23,201 bases of DNA from Saccoglossus kowalevskii (lineage: Eukaryota; Hemichordata; Enteropneusta; Harrimaniidae). The notes beneath the pieces are model-generated. The model was not told the origin of the DNA. It ran no database searches and saw only the letters and a program-made list of their open reading frames with translations. The position numbers were made by a program, and so were the translations under genes. Shown piece after piece: positions 4,423 through 22,614 of this stretch (position 1 is its first letter; every line of letters starts with the position of its first letter). The stretch is from positions 354,699 through 377,899 of the forward strand of contig NW_003120926.1 in NCBI RefSeq assembly GCF_000003605.2, in the 5' to 3' direction.

Positions 4423-7400
4423 CTGTAACAATAAAACAACATAGTATTGTTACTAAGAATTTAAATTCACACCAGCACACAAGCCATAGACAATCCAGAG
4501 TTAATCATAATTAAAAAAAAAAAAATTCTTTTATGCTCAACCTAGTAGCTGAGGAGGGAAGGGAGGACTCTGCTACAATTCGGTGCCCAACCTTAAAAAT
4601 GGATTTGAATTTCATGCAGGACATTTTGATAAAATGTAAATTAACTACCCTTTCAAGTATCGGTAAGTAGTGTTACGAAATTATATTCCAAACAATGGTC
4701 ACAAGTACATATATGTACATGTATGAACCAAATGATTTGTTGAATACGATAAAAAACAGGGTGTTCACCACAATGAATGACTTAACTTGGAAAACCCTCA
4801 AGAGAATATGTCAAAGATGTTTTACAATAGATTTTGATATTTTTACAAGGATTTCTTTTAGATGTATATAATATATTTACATTCCCAACAAAATCTGTGA
4901 ATTTGGTGTGATTGAAATTCCTACAAAAGAAGCTTTTAAGTACTTTAGAAAGTGCAAATGCAGTATTCCAAAACAAAGAAATGCACTTTCACAAACAGTG
5001 CCACCTAGAGTCAACTGAATTAAATAATGCTTCCCTGAAAACAGGGAACTGGTGGTGAAAAGGATAGCCTGAACTGAAAGTTCCCCAAAAATTTGGCAAG
5101 ATAGCCAATCCAAATCAGTTTTGATCCCAAAAGCAAGTTCACCTAAAGCATCTAAATCACTGTGTTCTCCCACAAGGAGTTTACAAGGCCCTGTTATCTG
5201 AAATTGGCGCCCTGTTTAAAATGTCAGTACCCTGCTATATTTCCTTTGGACCCTGGTCCCAGACACAATGCTTTACAATACAGATCATCACAAACTGTTA
5301 TTAAAGATGGGCTGCGGTGGTATGTGCAACTTCACACATGTAACAGAGAAATGATGGGTAACTGGTTGACAAATTGACAAACAATTTGTCTCTTTTTGGA
5401 CTATCATTAATAGTAAAAACAACTGATGTAGCTGTGATGATGTGTAGCTGATTTCAGATGAAAAATAATTACTTGATACATTTATAATAGCACTTTAAAT
5501 TTCTCATTTCTGAAAACTGTTCCGTATTAAATATTTAATATCAGCTTACATTTCTGTTACCAAGACTACTAACTACTAATAATTTTACCTAACTTTTATA
5601 CTTCAGTTAGCCAAACTTATAATACAGATTAAAAGTTCAAGGCTGAAACAATAATAGCGGGAGTATTCCAACATCTACATCTATGCCAATGATCCATGTT
5701 ACAATTTTAGTGATTCCCTCCCATTGATAGACACCCTGCAAAATATCATGTCAAAGGTCAAGTGCCACGCCCACTCCACCTGCCCCTTGGAGTTTAATTT
5801 CCAAACCATGGAGAGCCCTGAATATTAGACTTTGAAAACATGTTTTCTGGAGTCTATGCATCAAGTAATAAAGAAATAAATGATCAGTTTTTTATGGGCA
5901 TTTCTTGGCATCAGTTGACAACATTATGAGGTGACTCCACACTGCGACAAAAAAACTCCAGGATTCAAAAATGTTTTGTGGTGCTTTTTGCTACAAACTG
6001 CTGGTATTGATGCAGAGTTTTGATATGAAACTGGTACGTAAATAAATATTATTTCATACAATGTCTAACAATGACGATACTTATGGTAACAACAGGGATA
6101 CAAATTGATCTGTGATTCAGATATTCTCTAAAAGTTACTAACAACCTATACATCATCTGAAAGCTTAGATATAGACGAATGCCGTTCCAATGTTTTTCCA
6201 ATAAATTACCTGAAGGCCAATTTTGCAGGAATTGCACAGGATGTTCCTAACAATGTTGACTAGATGTGCGCATCTCAGTTTTTCTGTATCAGCTTTTGTA
6301 TTCTAGCTTTGATCAAATAACGACAGACATGTTACTGACGACATATTATCAGTAGCGTGTCTAGTTATTTGGTACCATAAAATCTGTATTAGAAGCCACA
6401 TCCCTAATAGAAGTTGCACCCTTTCTTTTTGAACAATTATTTAAGAACCAAAAATTTATCATTTCTCATATGTGTAGATGGCTCTAATAGAAGCCGCATC
6501 CCCTCTGTTGCATTCTACCATTTCAATAGAAGTCACAGCTTCTAATACAGATTTTACAGTACTAGTCCAAAAAAAACTCAATAGCAAAATCGATCGTAAG
6601 ATCATCCCTTAGACAAATGGTGGTACGGCGTATGCACTACCTTATTCATCTATAAACCAAGATTTCAGATGATGTATATAATAGCAGGTTCAGTAACCAT
6701 CAGTATTAATGTCAGAATCACAATTTTAAACACATCCCCCCCCCATTGCCACCTGCATTACACATACCCCTAACCTACATACCCTAAACCCTAACACTGA
6801 TTCCGTCTCCAGAAATACTCAATGCGAAAAACAAAAATGTTGCTCAACTTATATTTTAAGCAGCATTTCAAGTCATGTTACTTTATCACTACCGTATTTG
6901 CTCCATTAGAAGTGCATTTCAAGCAGACGTGCATTTGAACTAAAAATTGCATTTAACATATAATAGATCAATAAAACTTGACCTGTCAGTTATGCTATTA
7001 ATCAATAGAGCAAATATGGTATTAGACTTGCATAATGCTTGCCCACATTATTTGAAAACAATGTTCTGAATGCCCCACAAATATTTTCTCTCATAATAAA
7101 TTATTACCGTGTACGTTTTGATGCAACTCACCTGAAACACATTACTTTTATGACCACTTTGGTAGACTAAATTGGGTTTACCATGAGCCCAGTCCCAAAG
7201 TACGATCTCCAAATCATCGCTGCCGCTTGCAAGTAAATTCCCGGCCGGGTTAAAGTGTAAAGTATTCACACATCCTTGGTGATAGTCTAACGTGTTTTGA
7301 CGTTTAAAACGTTGGACGAAGGATGCGCTGCCAATCGCATTTGAGCTGTAGCTGTACATGTTCTTTTTATTTCCTAGTTCTCGGTCACGTATGTACGACC

Positions 7401-8028
7401 ATGCATACCAGTTGCACGGAAGCGGTTTCTGCTCGATTATGTCCTCTGGCTCAGATTCAATGTCACTGCCACCACTTCGCGTCTCACTGTGCCGGTCATC
7501 GTCTGCATCACTCTCGTCATCACTGTCTAATTCACTCGTTTTAACTTTATTAAGGATTTCTGCTTTTGGGCCGTCATCTTGATTTGATGCTCCTGTTTCC
7601 TCGTTTTCCACTGGCTCATCTATATCACCCATTTCAAGATCTTTGAATGTGTTTTCAGTTCTGTGTTTTGTTTTGTATTTATGTGATGTGCCCCCTTCAT
7701 CACTGCTACTACTAGAGGAGGGAGATATTTCGAAAGTGCCACCAGCCTTGGACGAGACAACATCTGCCGATGTGTCTTCCACTGGCTTGGAGGGTGCGTC
7801 TCCCTTCCCCCCATCTTCATCACAAACATTCTGTAGTTTGATGTCATTTGATTTAATCCCCTCTGAATTTAGTTCAGTGTTGTTGTCATGACAACTTGTT
7901 GATGCATCTCCTGCTGATTTATCATTTTTGACTAAACCATCGTTTTTGCAAATCTCAACTTCCATGTGGTTATTGTCAGTGTGGTTTTCAGAGTTCTTGA
8001 CCGTGGATTCTCCTTCAGTGTCTGCCAT
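4363..8028 (-). CDS. DCAF8: DDB1- and CUL4-associated factor 8 (5' part)
   Basis: DCAF8 is a WD40 substrate receptor of CUL4-DDB1 ubiquitin ligases. Coding exons seen are 8028-7132 (299 codons) and 4422-4363 (20 codons), joined in phase 0 across CAG|GTGAGT...ACAG. Residues 1-200 are acidic and Ser/Asp/Glu-rich, with a serine run near 104-109, as expected of the disordered N-terminus. From about 205 the family signature begins: FVQRFKRQ, then GCVNTLHFN, LASGSDDLEIVLWDW (WD repeat 1) and GHKSNVFQ. Exon 3 continues AKFMPYSGDTTIVSCARDGQ, matching the known order in vertebrate DCAF8. The remaining WD repeats and the C-terminus are outside the window. The ATG at 8028 lies 44 bases inside its exon. 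Family identity is close to certain. Confidence 0.93.
6373..6561 (+). mobile_element. MITE family 1, copy 3 (189 bp)
   Basis: The ends are TACCATAAAATCTGTATTAG and CTAATACAGATTTTACAGTA, nearly perfect inverted repeats. The core shares CATTTCTCATATGTGTAGATG and GAAGCCGCATCC with the other two copies, the first word being 21 bases when read on. A few extra bases in the middle explain the 5-bp length difference. It lies in the DCAF8 intron. Confidence 0.8.
6890..7021 (+). mobile_element. MITE family 3, copy 1 (132 bp)
   Basis: The left end TACCGTATTTGCTCCATTAG and right end CAATAGAGCAAATATGGTA pair as inverted repeats with one or two mismatches. The TIR differs from family 1 but shares the word ATTAGAAG followed by YGCAT, so families 1 and 3 may be related. 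Weaker copies are at 11484-11631 and 16418-16568. Confidence 0.65.
7132..8028 (-). CDS. DCAF8: DCAF8 first coding exon
   Basis: The exon begins at a probable acceptor, TTTCAG, with 8072 as the first exon base. It carries 44 bases of leader, then ATGGCAGAC at 8028, and ends at CAG|GTGAGT (7132/7131). All 299 codons are open. The acidic region has stretches such as SDDESDADDD at 168-177. The WD repeat starts near 247. ORFs in other frames across this exon on either strand are shadows. Confidence 0.92.
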
Positions 8029-8585
8029 AGTTGGTGTAAGTGCTCACGACATTGAATTGTTTGTCATGAAACCTGAAACGATAATATAGAAGAAACAAAA
8101 ATGACGATACATAAACTTGCTTTGATTTCTGTAACTCGGTCACGTCAGGGGGCAATGACACCGGTCGACGAACTTTCCAAATATGAAATCAGCTGCCAAT
8201 GCCAAAACAACCCGATGGAACTTAACTTTTTTTAAACAAATCACAAATATCTTCAGAAAAACTGTCTATGCCTCGTCAAACTAAGAGTTCTCGTCTTATT
8301 ATCTGGAGTTTATGGTCCCCATATGGCCCATATTTCAATGTCTGTACACTTAATACACAAATGCATAAACTACTCAATTTTTCCTCGTCTGGCTGTACGC
8401 CATTTTGAATAACAATTTTAAAGAACCGAGCTAAAATAACAACGACTGTTTTCACGTTAAAACAGTTTTGTGATGAAAACAACAAAAGGCGGTGCATGTG
8501 GAGATATAACGCACCCATTCGCGACGGTAATTCAGGACAGATAAGCGCGCGATGTGAATTTTAAAGCGGCGTTTTTGTCACCTAC

Positions 8586-9636: not shown

Positions 9637-9732
9637 GCACAGTCCCTCTATGACCGTGACGAAGTATCATTTTGCTTGCTCTACTCGCGTCAAAACACTG
9701 CCCTCAAAGTCTAATCTGAGAAGTGATTCAAG

Positions 9733-12700
9733 ATGTCTGCCTCCATCAAAGAACGTTTAAAAGAGCTCGTTGACAAAAAAGATGCAATTGAGAAAGAAAT
9801 CAAGGAACTTTACGAAGTACTTGACTCGGTAAGGTATTTAAAACGTTGTTCTCAGTATTTGTTAGTGTATATGATATCTGGTGACGTGTTTGACAAAGTC
9901 GGGCGTTCTCCTGAATCTTGCCAATTCATTGTTATGATTCTTAGTACCCGCCCGCTGTATGTATTGTTTATATCTGACGACACGTACTTGAGAACACGAG
10001 TATGGTGCCGAAAGTGTGAAATCCTTATATATTTAAATTCACTTTAAATCGTGGGTATATAAATAGAAATAGATTGTATTTGTTTGTCAATATTGCGTTT
10101 TTATTTGATATGCTCAAATTTCACCAAAATATTGACGACTAAATTCACAACAGGCTGTCATGAGTGAAAAGTTTATAAAAATACAAGGATATATTCAATT
10201 TATATTCATTTTGATTTAAAACATCAACATTGATGATTGAAATCCACCTTAGGCTGACCATGAACGTTTTTTTTAAAAAATACGTGGAAACATGTATATC
10301 TAATATTGACAAATTAAAACCCACATGGACGAATGAATATTCATGAGACACATTACACAGAAATTAATAATATTTCAACTTTGGATCTATGCAGCAGGCG
10401 TAAGAATACGTGTTTACCAATAAATTGTGTTACATCTTCTTGACTTTAAAGGGTGGCAGTTGTCGTGCTGCTTCCTGTTCGATATGGGTCTCATAGGGAC
10501 GTATACAACATGTGTATAATACATACTAGCAGTTTGTTTGCATTAAATTCGAGTACAAGCTGTGCTTGCTATCACTACCCTTTAATTTAATTTAAATCTT
10601 CAATATTGATTCATTTGATTTAACACTTTCTATAATTTAAAAATTAAATTGAAGAGCGACCAAAGCTCTTTAGATAAAATTTTTTTTATAAATATTCAAA
10701 AATTACACAATTCAGAAAGAAACAAGACATTTGTATTAGCTGACGTAATAACATTGGAACATTTCAAGTAACTTTATTTAATATGCACTGCCCTCGTTTA
10801 TTGACTCTTTGGATTCAACTGCCATTGACACTTGTATAAATGGAATGGGTTATTTTCTGGCTTATCGGCGGTATCGAATCGTTTTCTAACAACCAGAAAA
10901 CAGTTTATCTGTGAATGTTTACTCAGAGTCATTTTGAGCACTGGTGATATCTTCAATTTTTTTCCAACATAGCGCTATAGTTACTCTAAGCTGAGTTTCT
11001 GTGTCAATAAAACACAATAGAGTATTACTGATACTCTATTATTATCAGACTGTTTACATAGTACCGGTAGTGTTAATGTATAATAATGTGATTTTCTCAG
11101 CAACAAGGTGTTGGTATGGATGGTGCACTGATAGACAGTGATGGCTACCCAAGAAATGACATTGATATCTATTCTGTCCGGACAGCGAGACATAACATAA
11201 TATGTAAGTAAACGGAAACTGCAACTGACGGGTACTGTGAAATATACATGTCTTTTTAGCTAACATGTTATTTCAGTCAATTAGCTAATTTAGCTAATTC
11301 ATGATGTCACTAATTTGAAATCAAATATCTATTCTCACAATGGGATCGCTGGCATTCATGCATTCAGTAAAATTTACTAAAATCCATGTGAACACTTGAA
11401 ATTACAATGCTTCATTGGCAATTGCATGAATCACAGTAAAATGTTCAAAATATTATAATAATTGAAATAAATCTCATTGAAAATAACCATATTTGTTCCA
11501 TTAGTAGTGCATGAGCTGACGTAAATTATAGAGCTGTTTCTATGTTCATAAGTCATATTTTAATAATTCGGTATGCGCTAAATCTTATTTTAATTTTTTC
11601 AGAAGATGCGCTTCAAATAAGAGCAAGTACAATGTTCCTTACAGTATATTTGTCACACAGGGAGACTACTCTTCATACAAGTACATGCATACTGTAAAAC
11701 ACATTGAAATATCTACATACTATTTTATGATATTTACATTTAAAGGCTAGTGCCATGTTTAAATCTTGTATGAACAAATAATGTATCCGGGATACATATC
11801 AAAATTGACGCAGCGTGATGGTCACCATTCCTTAACCTTTTTTCAATTTTCACAAATATATTTTGCAAAATTGTGATTTAGGCCTGTAGCTAATAAAAAA
11901 TCATGTCCATTTAGTCCAAAATGATCAAAAATATTATAGAAAAAAAACAAAAAATAGGCAAAATGTTGAACCAAAATTCTGGTTGAAAAAATGATGGTGT
12001 CAAAGGGTTGAATTATGAATGATATATTAAATCTTCATATTGTAATATGAAGTTATTTTGAGGACATCATACAGTTTACATAAAGACAATACAGTGAGTC
12101 TGTCTACTGATGTACTATAGAGGTCAATATGTCCATGTGACATCAATAGCGCCACCTGGTGTCCAAAAATGAAAAAAATAACCATTAACACCAGAGGGCA
12201 GTATGAAGCAAGTCAGGGCACTACTGTTGAGAGTAAACAAGTGCATTATGCTTCCTTTTAGGTCTTCAAAATGATCATAAAGAATTGATGAAGCAGATAG
12301 AGAAAGGTCTCCATGCGTTACATGGCTTAGAAAAAGTAAACCAAGTTGCAGAAACTGGGAAGAAACCCACAGAGAAAGTGGATAGAAAACCTTTTGCTAA
12401 AATCGATATTGTTACACCTGAATCACCTGCCTCCATCGGGGTAAGCGGTGTTACAATCTCTTGCGTCAATTCTCTGTTTGGTATAAATTTGTGTAATTAA
12501 TATATTTGTTTTAATTTTGTGTAAAGATCGTACAATTTGGAAAGAAGTTGCTTTTGATGTACAGTGGACCTATTCATATTGTATGGTTTCATATTCTATT
12601 TCTGATAGATGAAATATAGCCAGGGCTTGAATTTATGTATTTTATAACAATATCATCATTTCATCTCATCTCATTCTCATTCTCAGGGTCTTGAGGTTGG

Positions 12701-12798
12701 TGATCAAGTCATCAAGTTTGGTTCAGTAACCGTGGAAAACTTCCATAGTCTTCAAAACATAGGGCAGGTTGTACAACACAGTCAGGGGGTAGGTATAC

Positions 12799-12847
<49 letters not shown>

Positions 12848-13962
12848 TGCATGTCTACAGTTCAAGCTATCTCAAATAACATTTTGTTCCTGATTACCTT
12901 TCTCAGTGTCTTGTTGTTTATTGGAAAGACTTCTATCAGCTTATCATTAATGTACAATAAGCCGCTTTTTCTCTCATCAATTTGGGGTTCACTTAATGGT
13001 AGAAGACATCACAAATAGTTGACTTAAATTCTGTGACCTCAGCACAAAGTTTTTTTTTTTTTAAATTTGTACCTGATATATTCATGTTTTGAATTTTTTT
13101 TTCATGTTCAGTGATATTTTTGATGCCACCCACCACTCAAATGTGTATATGTAGGTACACATACTAGAAAATACTTTATTTTCACTGAAAAGAAATATTG
13201 GCTGTTTTGTATAAATTTATTTTCACCAATTTTTGATGAGTTAAATGTGTTATACTGGTAGGTATTTTCATTGGACGGATTCACCCTTTCAGCAAAAACA
13301 GCAAAAATAAATTCCAAATGAAAATAAATTACTTTAGAGCAGTGTTGGAACCATATCAACCAATTCAACACAAGCTTTTGATAACCTCTGCCAGTCTATT
13401 AGTTCTTGACCTAACACTAACAGGTTAAACTTTCATTTTCTCACAATCAGAAACCAGTGAGTCTGACAGTGATAAGAAATGGAGAAGTAATCCATTTAGC
13501 AGTGAAACCACAAACATGGAGTGGAAGAGGTCTCCTTGGGTAGGTTTGAATAATAGATGAAATCTCTTGTTGCTTTGTTATTGAGTCTATATGCCTGTAC
13601 CTGGATGACTACTGTAAAAGTAATCACTATTCACACACACATACAAAATGACCTTGTAATAAAATTTGTTTTAAAACTATAGCCCGCCTCCACTTTTTTA
13701 ACAAAACCAAAACTGTTTCACAGTCTACCTAACTAACACTACAAAAATATAACCTTATTTAGGAGGTAAACATAAGTAGCTGACCTAACGCAGGTTTCCT
13801 TGTTCAAAGCGTTAATTACTATGCAAATTAGCTGCAACGCCGAGAGAACTCTGATATGCACTGTATCTTGATATTTTAAATTTATTTCAGATTTTTGACA
13901 TTGTTAATAAGATGCCATCATGTCTGCTTTCATTCTTCAGGTGTAACATAGTCCCACTCTAA
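9733..13962 (+). CDS. PSMD9: 26S proteasome non-ATPase regulatory subunit 9 (p27 chaperone)
   Basis: PSMD9 is an assembly chaperone of the proteasome base ATPase ring. Six exons join in frame: 9733-9828, 11101-11203, 12262-12440, 12687-12788, 13451-13539 and 13941-13962, giving 591 bp including the stop, 196 residues. All introns are GT-AG. Residues 1-32 form a coiled coil ([20 protein letters not shown]). Residues 47-72 hold the conserved [20 protein letters not shown] then CLQNDH. A PDZ domain fills about 110-190, with [20 protein letters not shown], then LTVIRNG and GRGLLGCNIVPL at the end. Human PSMD9 has 223 residues; the difference is a shorter N-terminus and linker. The ATG at 9733 starts the conserved coiled coil. 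No defect is seen. Confidence 0.96.
9829..11100 (+). other. PSMD9 intron 1, no feature seen
   Basis: This 1.27-kb intron starts TCG|GTAAGG and ends TTTTCTCAG. It is AT-rich. ORFs running on from exon 1 or on the minus strand are unsupported. I recognise no repeat family or RNA gene in it. Confidence 0.7.
11252..11400 (+). repeat. Dispersed repeat with TTTAGCTAA motif, copy B
   Basis: CTTTTTAGCTAACATGTTAT, TTAGCTAATTTAGCTAATTC, GATGT and ATTCTCACAAT follow one another exactly as in the left-end copy at 1-145. Identity fades after about 11400. It lies in PSMD9 intron 2. Confidence 0.55.
11484..11631 (+). mobile_element. MITE family 3-like, copy 2
   Basis: The left end TAACCATATTTGTTCCATTAG and the right end CAAATAAGAGCAAGTACA resemble the inverted ends of 6890-7021 (left end cut here at 20: AACCATATTTGTTCCATTAG is the matching part). 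The centre is diverged. Boundaries are approximate. Confidence 0.45.
12800..12844 (+). repeat. (TAA)n microsatellite
   Basis: About 15 uninterrupted TAA units begin 11 bp after the 5' splice site of PSMD9 intron 4 (GGG|GTAGGTATAC). Its length is likely to vary between individuals. The donor itself is intact. Confidence 0.95.
13162..13344 (-). mobile_element. MITE family 2, copy 3 (inverted)
   Basis: Read on the minus strand this follows 3401-3610. On the plus strand AAATACTTTATTTTCACTG, TTTTGATGAGTTAAATGTG, CACCCTTTCAGC and AAAATAAATTCCAA occur in the order expected of the reverse complement of copy 2. The ends are partly worn (TACTAGAAAATACTTTATTT, ATTACTTTAGAGCAGTG). It lies in PSMD9 intron 4. 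Confidence 0.65.
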
Positions 13963-14880: not shown

Positions 14881-16329
14881 CAGTGTCCAACATAGATGTT
14901 TCCCTGGTATACTCGTCAAAAGGAATAGTTCCGCATCTGGTTCATTGATTCTGCTACATTGCTTTTCAACTTTTATTTTTACCTCATGAGTAAGCTTGTT
15001 GGTGAAGGATTGGGAGATGTTCTTCACCTTCACTGCATGTGCTATTTGGAGTAAGTCATTAACCTGTTTTTCATTGTTTCCTGTATGATTAGTTATAACA
15101 TCGAATGCTATTATACAATTGCCACATCGATAAATTAGATCTACAATATGATGTGATATATCCCATAGAAATTATTCAAAGTCTGATCATCTTAAGTGGT
15201 TCTTTCTGGTGAATAGGAGGAAACCATCTATCGTTCTTTCTTCAAAAACTGATAATACGAAAGGATAAACGCCATCTATATGTTTAGAACCAAAAAAAAA
15301 ATCTATGTCAACACCACGACAAAATGCAATACTGAGATAGCCATGCCTTTTTAATACAATTTATTACAGTTAATTTCGTTCTGACATGGCTTTGTCTCTT
15401 CTTTGTCTCCTCTTTGTCTCATAATCCCTTATGTCTTAGAGTAGTATCGTATTGATTTTAAACGTGCCTGTCCTACCTAATAATACAAGTAATTGATTTT
15501 AAATACCGGTAAACAAAACATATACATCTTATAATGATTTGGGGCATTACTCTGAGATAGTCTTCCAAGGTGTGATGCTTTTGCATTAAATTACATATGT
15601 ATTCTACATATATCGTGGCAGTAAGTAAGTGCATGTAGGAAATGGAACATTGACATTCACAATTGATACATGATAGAACTTTGTATTGCCAAAACAGTAT
15701 CGGTATGTTTTTGAGTGCATACGAGTTAGACTTTGATTATTCATAGATATCTTGATAAACGTTGTGTACATGTAAATTTTGTTTACTATGTTACTACAAA
15801 GAAACTATCATTAGCATTTGAGTCGTGACTGCTATATACTACCTTGGATGGAACATTAAAAATGCGTCGACTTCTAACTTGTATCACAAACTCAATGGAA
15901 AGGCTAAATTAATAGTAACTGGCCGAATTTCATTCACAAACAACCTTTGGAACACCTTGGTTAAGGACTGCAGGTGCTTGTGTTCACCCAGGTATATGGA
16001 TGACGCCAATAAATTGTCATGATGCCATTTCGACAGGAAGATGGTCACACAGCCCTGTCATGTCGCCACAAACTGGAATATGGTCTTTGTGGCAAAATGC
16101 ATTATATATCGCACTCGAACAGACAAATGTTATCCATTGATAATATTTGCAAAAACTAATTTGGCTGTTTGAAAAGGGTCGATGGTCTGGGCATATTGAC
16201 AGCACATCCCCATAATTATAAGTACATCGAGGGGCGTAATACAATGACAATTTGCGATTCACATGTTATTTGTATTTCATTTAAAAGCTGCGAAACTGAT
16301 GTAAAGGATAAACATGATATCAAATTCAT
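14881..16329 (-). pseudogene. Decayed coding relic, family not recognised
   Basis: On the minus strand several protein-like open stretches follow each other, broken by stops and shifts. From 16329 to 16219 there is an open stretch ending before TAA. From 16207 to 15887, in another frame, TAA at 16132 and TGA at 16060 interrupt text including HKHLQSLTKVFQRLF and IRPVTINLAFPLSL. From 15345 to 14881, in a third frame, RTIDGFLLFTRKNHLR is followed by TGA (15189) and TAA (15174), then 97 open codons with NEKQVNDLLQIAHAVKVK and DAELFLLTSIPGKHLCWTL. A further IREVLSGFGWLKSFLT follows in a shifted frame. It lacks start codons, so it is easily missed. The mixture of helix-like text and few lesions suggests an old pseudogene or transposon protein. 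I could not name the family. Confidence 0.5.
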
Positions 16330-18068: not shown

Positions 18069-18695
18069 TTAATTATTATGCAGTACATTAACTATTAAAT
18101 TATGTTTATCATCATGTAATGCCTCAGACAAACGCTTCACAACGCATCTCGCGAGATGTAGTCTTGCCAACCCGTGGTTAGGATTTAAAGCTAACACCTG
18201 TCTCAACAACCGTTCCTCTACTTTTGATTTGTTAGTTAATTTAGCATATCCAAAAAGCCAATCTATGTTATCTGGGAACCTTTTTAATGCTTGCTTATAA
18301 CACTGGATGGCATGTTCATAGTGTGTACTGCCGAACCACTGTAGCGCGAAAGCTTCATGAGCCAATCGACATGCATATGCTTTCTCTATTAATTGTGGAA
18401 GAACATCATCTATTTCAATAATGAATCGATGGGCCTTCTCAAAGTCACCACGATAATATGCAATCCATGCTTTATCTGCTAAAAGAACAACCTTGTCACC
18501 CATTGCCCAATCATTGTTTTCTAGCTCCATAATGTTATCATTCGAAGCTTCGTCTATCCAATTCTCAGCTCGTTCTATGTCCTTTGAATTTCCTTTCAGA
18601 TCTGACAAGAAGAGGTATGACTTCAATGCTTTAGAAGGAACTCCCATCTCATTTGGAGTAGTCAGCAAATGATGGTCTATAGATTCCATGTACTT
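18069..18695 (-). CDS. Immune gene last exon: IFIT-like TPR region
   Basis: The exon starts after ATTCATCAATAG (first base 18695) with AAG TAC, and ends in TAA at 18071-18069. It codes 208 residues. TPR-like helix pairs include ADKAWIAYYRGDFEKAHRFI, YEHAIQCYKQALKRFPDN with DWLFGYAKL, and LLRQVLALNPNHGLARLHLA. The last matches the IFIT word LRQAxxLNPxNxY. IFIT proteins usually run to about 450-490 residues, but this one stops after roughly the first half, with no good donor before the stop. An ATG at 18689 could be mistaken for a start; phase agreement with the CHFTW exon argues for splicing instead. Confidence 0.8.
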   Translation of the reverse strand, partial: KYMESIDHHLLTTPNEMGVPSKALKSYLFLSDLKGNSKDIERAENWIDEASNDNIMELENNDWAMGDKVVLLADKAWIAYYRGDFEKAHRFIIEIDDVLPQLIEKAYACRLAHEAFALQWFGSTHYEHAIQCYKQALKRFPDNIDWLFGYAKLTNKSKVEERLLRQVLALNPNHGLARLHLARCVVKRLSEALHDDKHNLIVNVLHNN

Positions 18696-21600
18696 CTATT
18701 GATGAATAAAACAGTTATGTGATAAAAAAAACTTGTGTTCTTGGTACGTTCTAAATGTACGATACTATATATACATTTCTAATAAATATTGTGGGTATTC
18801 TAATAGACCCATTTCCATTACTATGAAACAATCATATTGCTGACATCGGCATCAACTCATGTGACCCTAACCTAAATTCATCATCACTGAATAAATAAAT
18901 TCAATGGGAAGCCAGATTACATAACTCAATATTCTGACAGCGCCGACAACGAACATAATAATGAGCAAACATAGATTGATCACTGTTACACATTTGCAAA
19001 ACACATTTACCTTGAAATCACCTGTACAATTTTCTTCCAGTTTCCAAGTGAAGTGACATGATAATTGTTTCAATTTTTCGAGTATGGATGTTTTTTCTGC
19101 TGAAATAAATAATGAATATAGTCAGTGTTGTACGTTACTGTCAGATATAGTACATCTATTACAACATATATGAGTGGAAAGCCAGATTTAACAATAGAAT
19201 AGCATGTAACAAGCATTCGAGTAAAGATTTATACACACATTTCGTACGGTAGATATAACAGCTTTTTGAAATTTGAAACTTTAGTAGCAATAAATTAAAC
19301 AAAAGTATGTGGGGGAACATACATTGTTAAATGTATTCTTCTACAACCACCTTCACTTTAATACACATATATAGATTTTAAAAAGTCTGGTTTTGTTCAC
19401 ATTAACGCTATGTTTGCTGAACTAACAAAAGTTGTACAGATTCGTGTGGTTGAATATGTGAGGTTCCACTTTCTTTTTTGCGTGAAAAACATTTAGAAGC
19501 TACGAAAATAAAAAAAAAATAATTATACGATTATCACATTTTCCCTTCTGTCAAAACATTATATACATAAGCCATACACATTGTGGTTTCTGATTTGTCA
19601 GACATGATTTGCTCATTAATTCTTCATCGAGTAATAGTATAATAGTATGTCATTTTCATAGTTAGTTATATTTTCATCGACAATAAGTTGTTTGTATTTT
19701 GTAAATTCAAATAGTTACTTCTGTGCAATTATATGATCGCCAATAACGACATATATGGAGCACCAAATATGTCTCAGTCAGGAGTTTACGGGGATATTGT
19801 TATTGTTATTATTTTGTATCGTTGCCAATATCAGTGTATTTGTTGTCATTATGAAGCAGCAAACCGTGAATAGTTTTACTGTCACTGGCACCTCAGTCTG
19901 CATAAAACGTCACTGTTGAAATGTGCTTCACCCGGGCATTCATAATCTCATATGGGAAAATACATTGAGAATAAAATAGTTTTGATCAAATATTAAATGT
20001 AAATCAAATTATTTACATTGTAAGGGAAAGAGTGACTGATGTATGGAGTGTAGTAGCATACTAGTATTATAGTGAATGCCCGAATAAACAGAACACGTGT
20101 ACGCCATTTCGACACCCGGTCGCGTCCTAACACCATGCTATAATGTACATGTACGCACAGTTTCATCCAGAAGGCCACTGCATATCAACTGACTGTGTAG
20201 GGATGTGTGGTACATGTACATAGACGCATCGTTACAGGTTAGATGTTATTGCACCTAATCTGCTTGCGTTAATGGTGTATCATTAGTGATATACCATAAT
20301 GTGACGTCTTTTTCATATACATCTGAGAGAAATTCACATTAGATTGTGATGACAAAAGAGAAAGGATCATGTTACTGCAACATGCTAAGGGTCTCTGAAA
20401 ACATATACTAAATCACAGAAATATCCTGGTGTACAAACAATGGTGCGGGCGGTATAGTGGTTAATACTGACCTGTTTGCTTGCTTGTGTTCAGAGATGAT
20501 GGTTCTATTTCAGCTGACACAGCTGAATCACCTGACAAACCCAATTTATCACCTGATATGTCCACTGTATCACCCAACACGTTAGTTGTATTGTCTGTCA
20601 CAAACACTGTGTTATCTGATGCGTCCACTATATCACCAGTTTCGTCCATTGCATCACCTGAGACGTCAGTTTTATCTACAATCGAGGACTTCTTAATCTG
20701 TGTTGTCTCTGTTAACAGAAAATGAAAAGGCAGTTGTAGATAAACATCGATGATACAATTCAAAGTCGCTGTAAGTAATGTATTGGCCATAAAAGCATTT
20801 ATATATTTTTGTCAGTAATGGTACTGAACTTATAAGACCAAATGTGAGACCAAACCTTTTTCTCTTCTCTTCTCTTTTTTAATAAAAGTGTCATCTAATA
20901 CCTCCATATGTTTCTCATTGAACTCTTTCTGCAATAATGTAAGGTTGTCAGTCTGCATTCTTATAGAGTGTTTCAACCGACTTTCTTCTTGATCCTTAAA
21001 TGAATTGCCATCTGTAGACATCTGTAGACATTCATGTAGTATACTTTCCCTGAATACACATAGTGCTTTTTTACATGGTAGACTTTTGTAATGTAGATTC
21101 AGGTGCTTGATGTTCAAATGAGCTTCCATTATTGATTTACCTTGTCGGTGTGTCCTTGCCATCGAAAATATATTCTCTTCTTTCCTAATTGCTGTAATAG
21201 TGAAATTGATTATTGAATGATTATTACTGAAATGTTCACTTTGTGTGTCATAGTTTTATGATCACTTACATTCTATATAAGTGTTTACTTCGTTCCATAT
21301 ACTTCATGTGTTATCATCAACAAGGAATGCCTTTTTAGTATTGATTAATGCAAACAAAAATCATCATGTCACTGGCATATTCTGGTTCAGTGTAATTTAC
21401 ATACTTCATTTAAACGACATTTCGTTACGTAATATGTAAACTTGCCTTTAAAATACCGTTCACAATGTTCAAGGTGCATTGGATCTACAGAAACAGATAT
21501 TTGTAATTTGATGTCGTCATCTTTCACGATTGCTTTCATTTCATCCGTAACTAAGACAGGGGTTAACAGTTTGTTGAGCTTACCAGAATGTATACCTTCC

Positions 21601-22614
21601 TTTAATACATTCAAGTTTGACAAACCCCAACACCTGACAATGAATTTAACGGTGGACATCTTGATCTCTTTCAATTCTACCTTCAGCTCTTGAAGAACTT
21701 CATTCATCATTTGACGTTTCTCTGAGTCTGATGCATTGCTCTGTTTAATGATCTTCATCTTTTCATGAAAAACCAGTGATACAGCCCTCAGTTGTACATC
21801 GTTCATATTACCTTTATCAATCCCAATTATGAGAGGGAAATCTATAGAAAAAGAGTAACATTGTGAATCACACAACTTCCGAAGGTCTCAACTATTCGAA
21901 TAAATGACATAAAGAAAAATTACCACAACATGGTATTTTATTCCGATAATCAATTCCTTCATCGTCCAAGCTTCTTTTAATTCTCATATTCCTCGATTTC
22001 GTCAACAAGATCTAATCTGCGTGCTTCCTTGAATAATGCAACCAATAAATCCAAGTTGTCATTTTTGATATGTCCAGCGTCTTTTAGGGCTAATATTAGT
22101 TCAGATGAGTGTTTGAATTCTTCAACTTTAGAGCGATCCAATAAGTTATGGCATAGGCATTTCAGCTTATAAAACGTGTCTGTAACAATAGGATGATATT
22201 TTACATTGTGAAACATGTAATACATGTTTCAGTATATTTCAGAAGAGCTAAGGTTAGTGAATGTTACCCTAATCGCTCACCTTCACCAATATCCCTTGCA
22301 AGTCTATTTACAAAACTGTTAAAATGCAAAGTTGCTTTTGCTTTCACTTCGTCAAATGCAAAAGACAGTTGCTAGCTATGTAGCTGATTTGTTTCTTTCA
22401 ACGCGTGTTGAAGAAGTCGTTTCTGGCCTTTGTTGATATTCAATGTACTTATGTCTTCATCTGTCATAAGTTTCAGTGCAGGAAAATTGTCAAATCCATC
22501 ATCTTTAAGACATTCTATGGTTACGTCATTTAAATTGTTATCTTTACCCCATTGTATGATATCAGGGGCGTCTAGGTTGGTTGCTGTAGTACTCGTTTCA
22601 CTGGGAGATGTCAT
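18069..22614 (-). CDS. SAM-DED-TRADD_N-like-IFIT/TPR protein, with two frame lesions
   Basis: Seven coding exons (22614-22281, 22179-21924, 21841-21446, 21191-20856, 20708-20472, 19099-19011, 18695-18069) join with intron phases 1,1,1,1,1,0. The spliced length is 2275 bp, one base more than a multiple of three. The conceptual order is SAM (about 14-77), DED (about 98-180), TRADD N-terminal-like region (about 215-329), a helical/coiled segment (330-440), a seven-residue repeat (about 455-505) and an IFIT-like TPR region (521-757). SAM and DED are oligomerisation modules of death and immune signalling; IFIT proteins bind viral-type RNA. A TAG at 22374-22372 ends the frame after SAM, and an extra base near 21990 breaks it after DED. 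The flanking parts are otherwise clean. So it is a recently damaged gene, a recoded gene, or carries sequence errors. The one-gene model rests on phase agreement, not on transcripts. Confidence 0.72.
19011..19099 (-). CDS. Immune gene exon: IFIT signature CHFTW
   Basis: A small 89-bp exon, phase 1 to 0, ends TTCAAG|GTAAAT. It encodes EKTSILEKLKQLSCHFTWKL then EENCTGDFK. The words LxQLxCHFTW(E/K)L open IFIT-family proteins (interferon-induced proteins with TPRs), which places the IFIT N-terminus here. The acceptor is TTTCAGCAG, a tandem NAGNAG, so use of the second AG would drop one codon without breaking the frame. Confidence 0.75.
19100..20471 (-). other. Largest intron of the immune gene
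   Basis: 1372 bp from CAG|GTCAGT to TTTCAG. It is AT-rich with a mildly CpG-containing patch near 20095-20130. The short ORFs in it, such as 19993-20178, begin at GTG and lack splice context. I see no repeat family from elsewhere in the window except the SINE-like head at its 5' edge. Confidence 0.6.
20442..20517 (+). mobile_element. tRNA-type SINE head, antisense to the exon
   Basis: On the plus strand GGGCGGTATAGTGGTTAATA resembles a tRNA D-arm and box A. About 40 bases later GGTTCTATTTCAGCT resembles box B and T-arm (GGTTCGATTCC), after CAGAGATGAT. This is the layout of many tRNA-derived SINE heads. Nothing SINE-like continues, as the minisatellite starts at 20518. The donor of the exon (minus CAG|GTCAGT, 20472/20471) lies inside it. 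Confidence 0.45.
20472..20708 (-). CDS. Immune gene exon: heptapeptide repeat linker
   Basis: 237 bp from CTGTTAACAG to AACAG|GTCAGT, phase 1 at both ends. After TTQIKKSSIVDKTD come seven 7-residue units (VSGDAMD, ETGDIVD, ASDNTVF, VTDNTTN, VLGDTVD, ISGDKLG, LSGDSAV), then SAEIEPSSLNTSKQTG. The linker is acidic, Thr/Ser-rich and likely disordered. The last part is antisense to a tRNA-type SINE head (see 20442-20517). Confidence 0.7.
20518..20664 (-). repeat. Coding minisatellite, 7 x 21 bp
   Basis: Seven tandem 21-bp units fill codons from GTC (20664) to GTG (20518). The common unit resembles VSGDTVD, with GGTGAT at its centre in five of the seven units. The units differ at many third and some first positions, so the array is not fresh. 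Because the unit is a multiple of three, gain or loss of copies keeps the frame. Confidence 0.85.
20856..21191 (-). CDS. Immune gene exon: helical, coiled-coil-like segment
   Basis: 336 bp from CTATTACAG to AAAAG|GTTTGG. It reads in phase from IRKEENIFSMARTH and is open to the donor. The first part (AHLNIKHLNLHYKSL, CVFRESILHECLQMS) is not recognised. The second (RLKHSIRMQTDNLTLLQKEF, then KKEKRREK) has heptad-like spacing. CTACAGATGT is duplicated in tandem. It has no known domain; it probably acts as a spacer or oligomerising helix between signalling and TPR modules. Confidence 0.65.
21446..21841 (-). CDS. Immune gene exon: TRADD N-terminal-like region
   Basis: 396 bp from TTCTATAG to the non-canonical donor AAAG|GCAAGT. 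The first half is helical and charged (QLRAVSLVFHEKMKIIKQ, MMNEVLQELKVELKEIKM). The second half reads VKFIVRCWGLSNLNVLKEG, HSGKLNKLLTPVLVTDEM, then IKLQISVSVDPMHLEHCERYF. The order strand (VKFIVRCW), helix with a Y/H-S/E-G-x-L word, and strand (LQISV) ending in a helix with ERCxxx-like residues resembles the TRADD N-terminal domain (TRADD itself: QLRFCG..., REGAL, LQLELRAG...EERCL). This is by eye; a profile search would decide. Confidence 0.65.
21924..22179 (-). CDS. Immune gene exon: death effector domain with frameshift
   Basis: Acceptor TTGTTACAG, donor TTGTG|GTAATT. In phase with the previous exon it reads DTFYKLKCLCHNLLDR, then ELILALKDAGHIKNDN and LDLLVALFKEARRLDLVDEI. This is a typical DED core, with the RxDL word of DED helix 6. 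The frame then meets TAA at 21979-21977. From 21987 the +1 frame is open as MRIKRSLDDEGIDYRNKIPCC to the donor and joins exon 3 exactly (G|AT). The exon is 256 bp, one base too many. The run GAGGAATATGAGAAT marks the place. Confidence 0.75.

Follow-up and report, generated by a model that had tools for sequence, protein, structure and literature searches.

Does a single gene of Saccoglossus kowalevskii join adaptor modules of death-receptor signalling to an IFIT-type TPR region? The window analysed here, that is the whole stretch of 23,201 nucleotides (G000:C1348:354699-377899), lies at the very end of the 377,899-base contig C1348. On its minus strand it carries, in this order, a SAM-like domain, a DED, a TRADD-N-like domain, a coil, a linker of 21-nt repeats and an IFIT-like TPR region. 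An earlier note had read these modules as one continuous gene, with splice sites and phases linking all seven exons. We compared the locus with the remainder of its own genome (572,110,611 bases in 4830 contigs searched), with protein families and solved structures, and with published accounts of related proteins.

The first two exons are interrupted. Exon 1 (22281-22614, minus strand, as are all exons described below) encodes the SAM-like domain and the first helix of the DED, and its codon 81, which lies between the two, is an in-frame TAG (22374-22372). Beyond this TAG the same frame is open up to a good donor. Exon 2 (21924-22179) encodes the remainder of the DED, the frame of which halts at a TAA (21979-21977) in the second codon past the domain, and an AATAAA is found 35 nt past this TAA (21942-21937). 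Since exon 2 comprises 256 nt, which is not a multiple of 3, and has phase-1 joins on both sides, it also shifts the frame. Since exons 1 and 2 contain no later ATG in the DED frame, the DED lacks a separate start codon. We did not find DED and TRADD-N-like domain within a single open reading frame in the window copy. Splicing around the TAG was considered and rejected: the well-scoring GT sites before it are located within the SAM-like domain, and those AG sites that come after it have no pyrimidine tract as judged by eye. Likewise, a search for an alternative exon 2 donor ahead of the TAA, covering 60 nt from the end of the domain, gave none in the DED frame that scores 6/9. As assembled, neither a joint SAM-DED product nor one that links either domain to the remaining exons can be translated from this copy. 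The continuous SAM-to-TPR gene is not present in the assembled sequence, where TAG, TAA and frame change break it, and only exons 3-7 join.

How do related copies solve the same junction? The genome holds 16 DED matches, two of which are the window itself, and six of the other 14 were compared. All six paralogous DED exons (L050, L051, L062, L053, L063 and L036) possess, 16-31 nt past the domain and in frame with the DED, a phase-1 donor (7-8/9), and a donor of this type after the DED is absent in the window. One of them, L050, gets to its donor only via a frame change inside its DED and is therefore also damaged. The two stops could in principle be meant: the TAG would be read through on purpose, and a SAM-DED protein would end at the TAA. 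An open frame before and after the TAG and the AATAAA shortly past the TAA fit this idea, and the context of the TAG resembles the leaky UAG-CAR-YYA motif except for its last base. However, this last base does not match, AATAAA is common in AT-rich DNA, and the paralogs go on into TRADD-N. We regard purposeful read-through as very improbable.

The domain names proposed in the earlier note held to different degrees. The DED is recognised by Pfam (PF01335, E 1.4e-12, above cut-off), and the TPR part is IFIT-like in sequence, as detailed below. The SAM-like exon alone scored below the Pfam cut-off of 23 bits (SAM_1, E 0.073, 13.9 bits). Five sequences, those of the window and of four related segments, combined into one profile found SAM domains in the PDB (best E 1.2e-4; 19 matches up to E 1, some of which are not SAM). 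The AlphaFold model of this exon comprises five helices.

Exon 3 (21446-21841, with a GC donor), named TRADD-N-like, has 11 matches in its own genome including itself, ten of which were aligned (one match in C1613 was excluded). Exon 3 itself gave no TRADD match in Pfam. PF20694 weakly matches two of the ten exon-3 relatives (best E 0.064), one family member matches the ACT domain (E 0.007), and hhalign of the exon-3 family against two PF20694 genome matches gave a P of 1.9e-4 and a probability of 47%; all three point weakly towards a TRADD-like N domain. On the other side, several unrelated Pfam families score as high on the exon-3 family, and PF20694, searched over the genome, found seven other places, with exon 3 not among the matches. 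Foldseek comparison of the exon 3 model (pLDDT 78.7, pTM 0.47) with the PDB returned 122 matches up to E 10, none of them at E <= 0.001. The likeness of exon 3 to TRADD-like N domains is weak but consistent at the level of sequence, with no support from Pfam on exon 3 itself or from fold.

Exon 4 (20856-21191) is a coil exon. It is related to the L051 coil exon (match at E 3e-7 in a single comparison; 0 of 1000 shuffles), a kinship that tblastn over the loci missed, and the genome search with exon 4 likewise found only exon 4 itself. Exon 5 (20472-20708) is the linker of 21-nt, that is 7-residue, repeats, and here the earlier description proved correct: identity at lag 21 is 0.46, a value reached by none of 5000 codon shuffles, although Tandem Repeats Finder does not list the linker at default score. 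Inter-repeat identity is nearly equal by codon position (35/72, 33/71 and 31/71), so that the repeats bear no sign of selection for protein.

The first four modules recur elsewhere. DED and exon-3 matches occur together at seven other genome places, while three more exon-3 matches have no DED match nearby. In C1613, at 84-94 kb, SAM-like, DED, TRADD-N-like and coil exons follow each other in the same order as in the window. This copy (L050, 1629-8110) has frame changes in three exons, and beyond its coil we observed a second SAM-like exon and then an array of LRRs with several frame changes; the LRRs adjoin the copy, which does not imply that they belong to the same gene. The loci in C4 (L053) and C4178 (L062) share DED, TRADD-N-like domain and coil with the window; unlike the window, they have no SAM match, their DED frame joins the next exon, and their C-terminus is an NHL propeller. 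In C4 and in a second C1613 copy the DED appears to begin without a SAM. A further locus (L063 in C9, 1843-7077) contains a row of DED exons and one TRADD-N-like exon, probably tandem copies. As far as sequence can tell, these arrangements show SAM-like, DED, TRADD-N-like and coil exons to be parts of one unit, with a C-terminal part that varies among copies.

Such a family has been described. According to the accessible text of Kaur et al. 2021 (PMC8195603), marine invertebrates have expanded sets of DED-TRADD-N proteins that belong to the NCOA6 and DEDD2 clades; the pattern is reported from bivalves, brachiopods, cnidarians, sponges, cephalochordates and others. The same text reports fusions to many antiviral domains and to TTC28-like TPRs, and it proposes retrotransposon-aided capture. 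The window shares with this family, as presented there, a DED followed by a TRADD-N-like domain, changing C-termini and several copies per genome (in our case with NHL in two copies and LRRs adjoining one); it differs by its IFIT-like C-terminus, its N-terminal SAM-like domain and its broken state. The words IFIT and SAM are absent from the main text of PMC8195603, a statement that concerns neither its figures nor its source data. The general plan, DED plus TRADD-N plus a changing and often antiviral C-terminal module, is known from this text, and what is new is the IFIT-like tail. We consider it reasonably likely, though far from certain, that the locus is a decaying member of the DED-TRADD-N-coil family with a truncated IFIT-like TPR piece in its C-terminal slot.

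Decay presupposes that the breaks are real. Alternatively, the gene may be intact in the animal, with breaks that are assembly errors or belong to one null haplotype, and the full SAM-DED-TRADD-N-coil-linker-TPR protein would be made. An open frame on either side of the TAG, continuing to a good donor, agrees with this possibility, as do the position of the locus at a contig end and the frame changes in the neighbouring copy L050. Yet two independent breaks occur within about 400 bases, the paralog donor after the DED is missing, and matched segments elsewhere in the genome are nearly stop-free: none of the 55 Death-domain matches and none of the 11 exon-3 matches contains a stop, and 15 of the 16 DED matches are free of stops. 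This low rate, which covers matched segments only and is blind to frame changes, speaks against a generally poor assembly; frame changes do occur, as the C1613 cluster illustrates.

An intact gene is also favoured by the constraint on exon 3. We applied the Nei-Gojobori method to exon 3 in the pairs among window, L051 and L050, since dS is near saturation in more distant pairs, which were excluded; the DED-exon pairs were too short or saturated for dN/dS. The values were dN 0.337 and dS 1.075 for window-L051, dN 0.321 and dS 1.005 for window-L050, and dN 0.180 and dS 0.470 for L051-L050. By difference, the window branch has a dN of 0.239 and a dS of 0.805, a ratio of 0.30. Exon 3 thus appears to have been constrained for most of its history, so that the breaks would be young, or only exons 1 and 2 dead, or the breaks not present in every haplotype. 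The same data count against decay, since a long-dead gene would not keep both this constraint and open exons 3-7. Weighing both sides, we find an intact gene improbable, and continue with decay as the preferred reading.

Joined, exons 3-7 form one open frame of 560 codons without a stop, or of 582 residues if started at ATG 21987, which lies in another frame of exon 2. All six acceptors of the locus are AGs with 10-13 of 16 pyrimidines upstream, and the six donors score 6-8/9 against a donor consensus, a level of at least 6/9 that is reached by 55 of the 310 GT sites between 23000 and 17600. A TRADD-N-coil-linker-TPR protein could be the product of a working, shortened gene that has its own start and no DED. 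The length of the open frame, the constraint on exon 3 and an ATG at 21987, whose phase fits that exon, would suit such a gene. On the other hand, its promoter and transcript are putative, a transcript of seven exons would contain interfering ATGs further upstream, and the donor of exon 4 is weak. We deem this version as improbable as an intact gene. Since the window stops at the contig end, known sequence upstream of the ATG of exon 1 amounts to 587 bases only.

The weak donor leads to the question of whether the IFIT part belongs to the gene at all. Exon 4 of the window is shorter than the coil exons of its paralogs: it ends earlier, in phase 1, at a donor that scores 6/9 (AAG/GTTTGG), whereas the coil exons of four paralogs exit in phase 0 with another donor. 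Because of this difference the IFIT part may lie outside the gene. In that case two neighbours that were never joined would adjoin each other, a broken DED-TRADD-N copy (exons 1-4) and an IFIT-like gene fragment (exons 6 and 7). Besides the phase of the four paralogs, this reading gains from contig C293, where an IFIT-like gene starts with an ATG of its own and seems to stand alone, and from the linker, the opposite strand of which is open too (84 codons), so that openness proves little. Further support comes from C3045: exon 6 together with the intron before it recurs there in decayed form (L064, 1520-1701, minus strand; 71% identical over 190 columns), and neither a DED nor an exon-3 match turned up in the 4 kb examined.

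Against two separate neighbours, exons 4, 5 and 6 agree in phase 1, and exon 6 (19011-19099), an IFIT-type N-terminal helix exon, has no start codon at the position where the C293 gene has one. Only three weak candidates for a stand-alone first exon of the IFIT part are present in the intron; with donors of 7/9 and no support, they were rejected. In C4 and C4178, the NHL acceptors judged best by eye share the entry phase of the exon 6 join. We consider two separate neighbours unlikely, although less so than the intact or the shortened gene, and retain a single decaying copy as the preferred reading. The IFIT-like tail would be a new element of the family, and on the available sequence its attachment to the DED-TRADD-N copy is unproven. 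In a literature search that took in few subscription papers, no TRADD-N-IFIT or DED-TPR/IFIT fusion protein was found, and the accessible part of PMC9334734 contains no IFIT protein of the window kind. The intron between exons 5 and 6 harbours a dispersed repeat (19747-20191, no strand assigned), in which 41 of 46 rows from the DNA search against the genome fall.

We then turn to the IFIT part itself. Exon 7 (18069-18695) encodes 208 codons followed by a TAA and contains TPRs according to Pfam; NCBIfam gave nothing beyond generic TPR families. When exons 6 and 7 were compared with 29 solved-structure sequences, the best nine were IFIT1, 5, 2 and 3 (E 7e-11 to 4.5e-6). As in vertebrate IFITs, there are an N-terminal helix exon and TPRs, and residues 7-213 of the query align with IFIT1; unlike them, the window part stands behind death-adaptor exons and is shortened. 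The match stops at chain position 219 (4hou) or 226 of 479 (5udi), under halfway along IFIT1, and downstream of exon 7 no further match to the C293 protein was detected. The C-terminal part of an IFIT and the full TPR superhelix with its three subdomains are consequently missing. Of the RNA-contact residues of IFIT1, K151 aligns with W in the window protein, R187 falls into a deletion and R255 lies beyond the end, with residues hand-counted on the printed chain in a weak alignment of 44 bits. In the accessible text of PMC12543323, R187 is called essential for RNA binding by IFIT1, and that of PMC13197388 assigns R255 a role in RNA contact. Since the TPR part is cut short and has neither R187 nor R255, RNA sensing by it is doubtful. 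Of the IFIT-type RNA-binding region claimed earlier, the IFIT-like sequence stands, and RNA binding does not follow.

Only two IFIT-like places were found in the genome, the window and C293. The C293 gene (L052, 6964-8834) is full-length and has IFIT5 and IFIT1 as its best PDB matches. The alignment of its protein with IFIT1 extends to chain position 456-463. The two IFIT-like proteins are 31% identical over 193 columns, and in both the N-terminal helix exon is apart from the TPR exon. Unlike the window, C293 presents a full-length TPR frame of 534 codons and keeps, in the HMMER alignment, an Arg in the column of R187. The 7 kb examined upstream of it gave neither a DED nor an exon-3 match, which counts against the join to the IFIT part in the window. 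Liu et al. 2013 (PMC3688568), in its accessible text, recognises no true IFIT in invertebrates and lets IFITs begin with jawed vertebrates. A full-length IFIT-like gene in a non-vertebrate genome bears on this published origin.

What might such proteins do? By analogy with the biology of DEDD2 and TRADD and with the proteins of Kaur et al., the DED of intact relatives, together with SAM where present, would form oligomers and bring in death-fold partners, TRADD-N-like domain and coil would serve as a scaffold, and the C-terminal module would bind the trigger. In the window copy, exons 3-7 may still be able to encode a TRADD-N-coil-linker-TPR protein, provided that exons 4, 5 and 6 are spliced as predicted and the product is translated. 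Without a DED, this protein would presumably act as a scaffold or decoy at best. A more far-reaching possibility is that a non-vertebrate captured an IFIT-type TPR in the C-terminal slot of a DED-TRADD-N gene, giving rise to a TRADD-N-coil-linker-IFIT protein (to which other alleles or individuals would add DED and SAM) and thereby to an IFIT-like sensor wired to death-adaptor modules. We hold this to be a tentative idea and rather unlikely. If exons 4, 5 and 6 are truly joined, an IFIT-type module extends the set of antiviral domains that marine animals are already known to fuse to TRADD-N adaptors. That RNA sensing would be coupled to death signalling, as the earlier note had envisaged, is conjecture. 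As sequenced, the locus mainly represents turnover: the death domain is lost and the rest of the copy is open.

The remainder of the window holds other coding remnants and genes. An AIG1/GIMAP-type GTPase fragment (14881-15171, minus strand; Pfam AIG1, 1.6e-6) lies between the exon 7 locus and a PSMD9/Nas2-like gene (9727-12890, plus strand; Nas2_N and PDZ_6, all below cut-off). At 12799-12848, an ATA triplet repeat of 16.7 copies encodes poly-Asn in the PDZ frame. A WD40 exon at 7051-8043 (minus strand) is presumably DCAF8-like.
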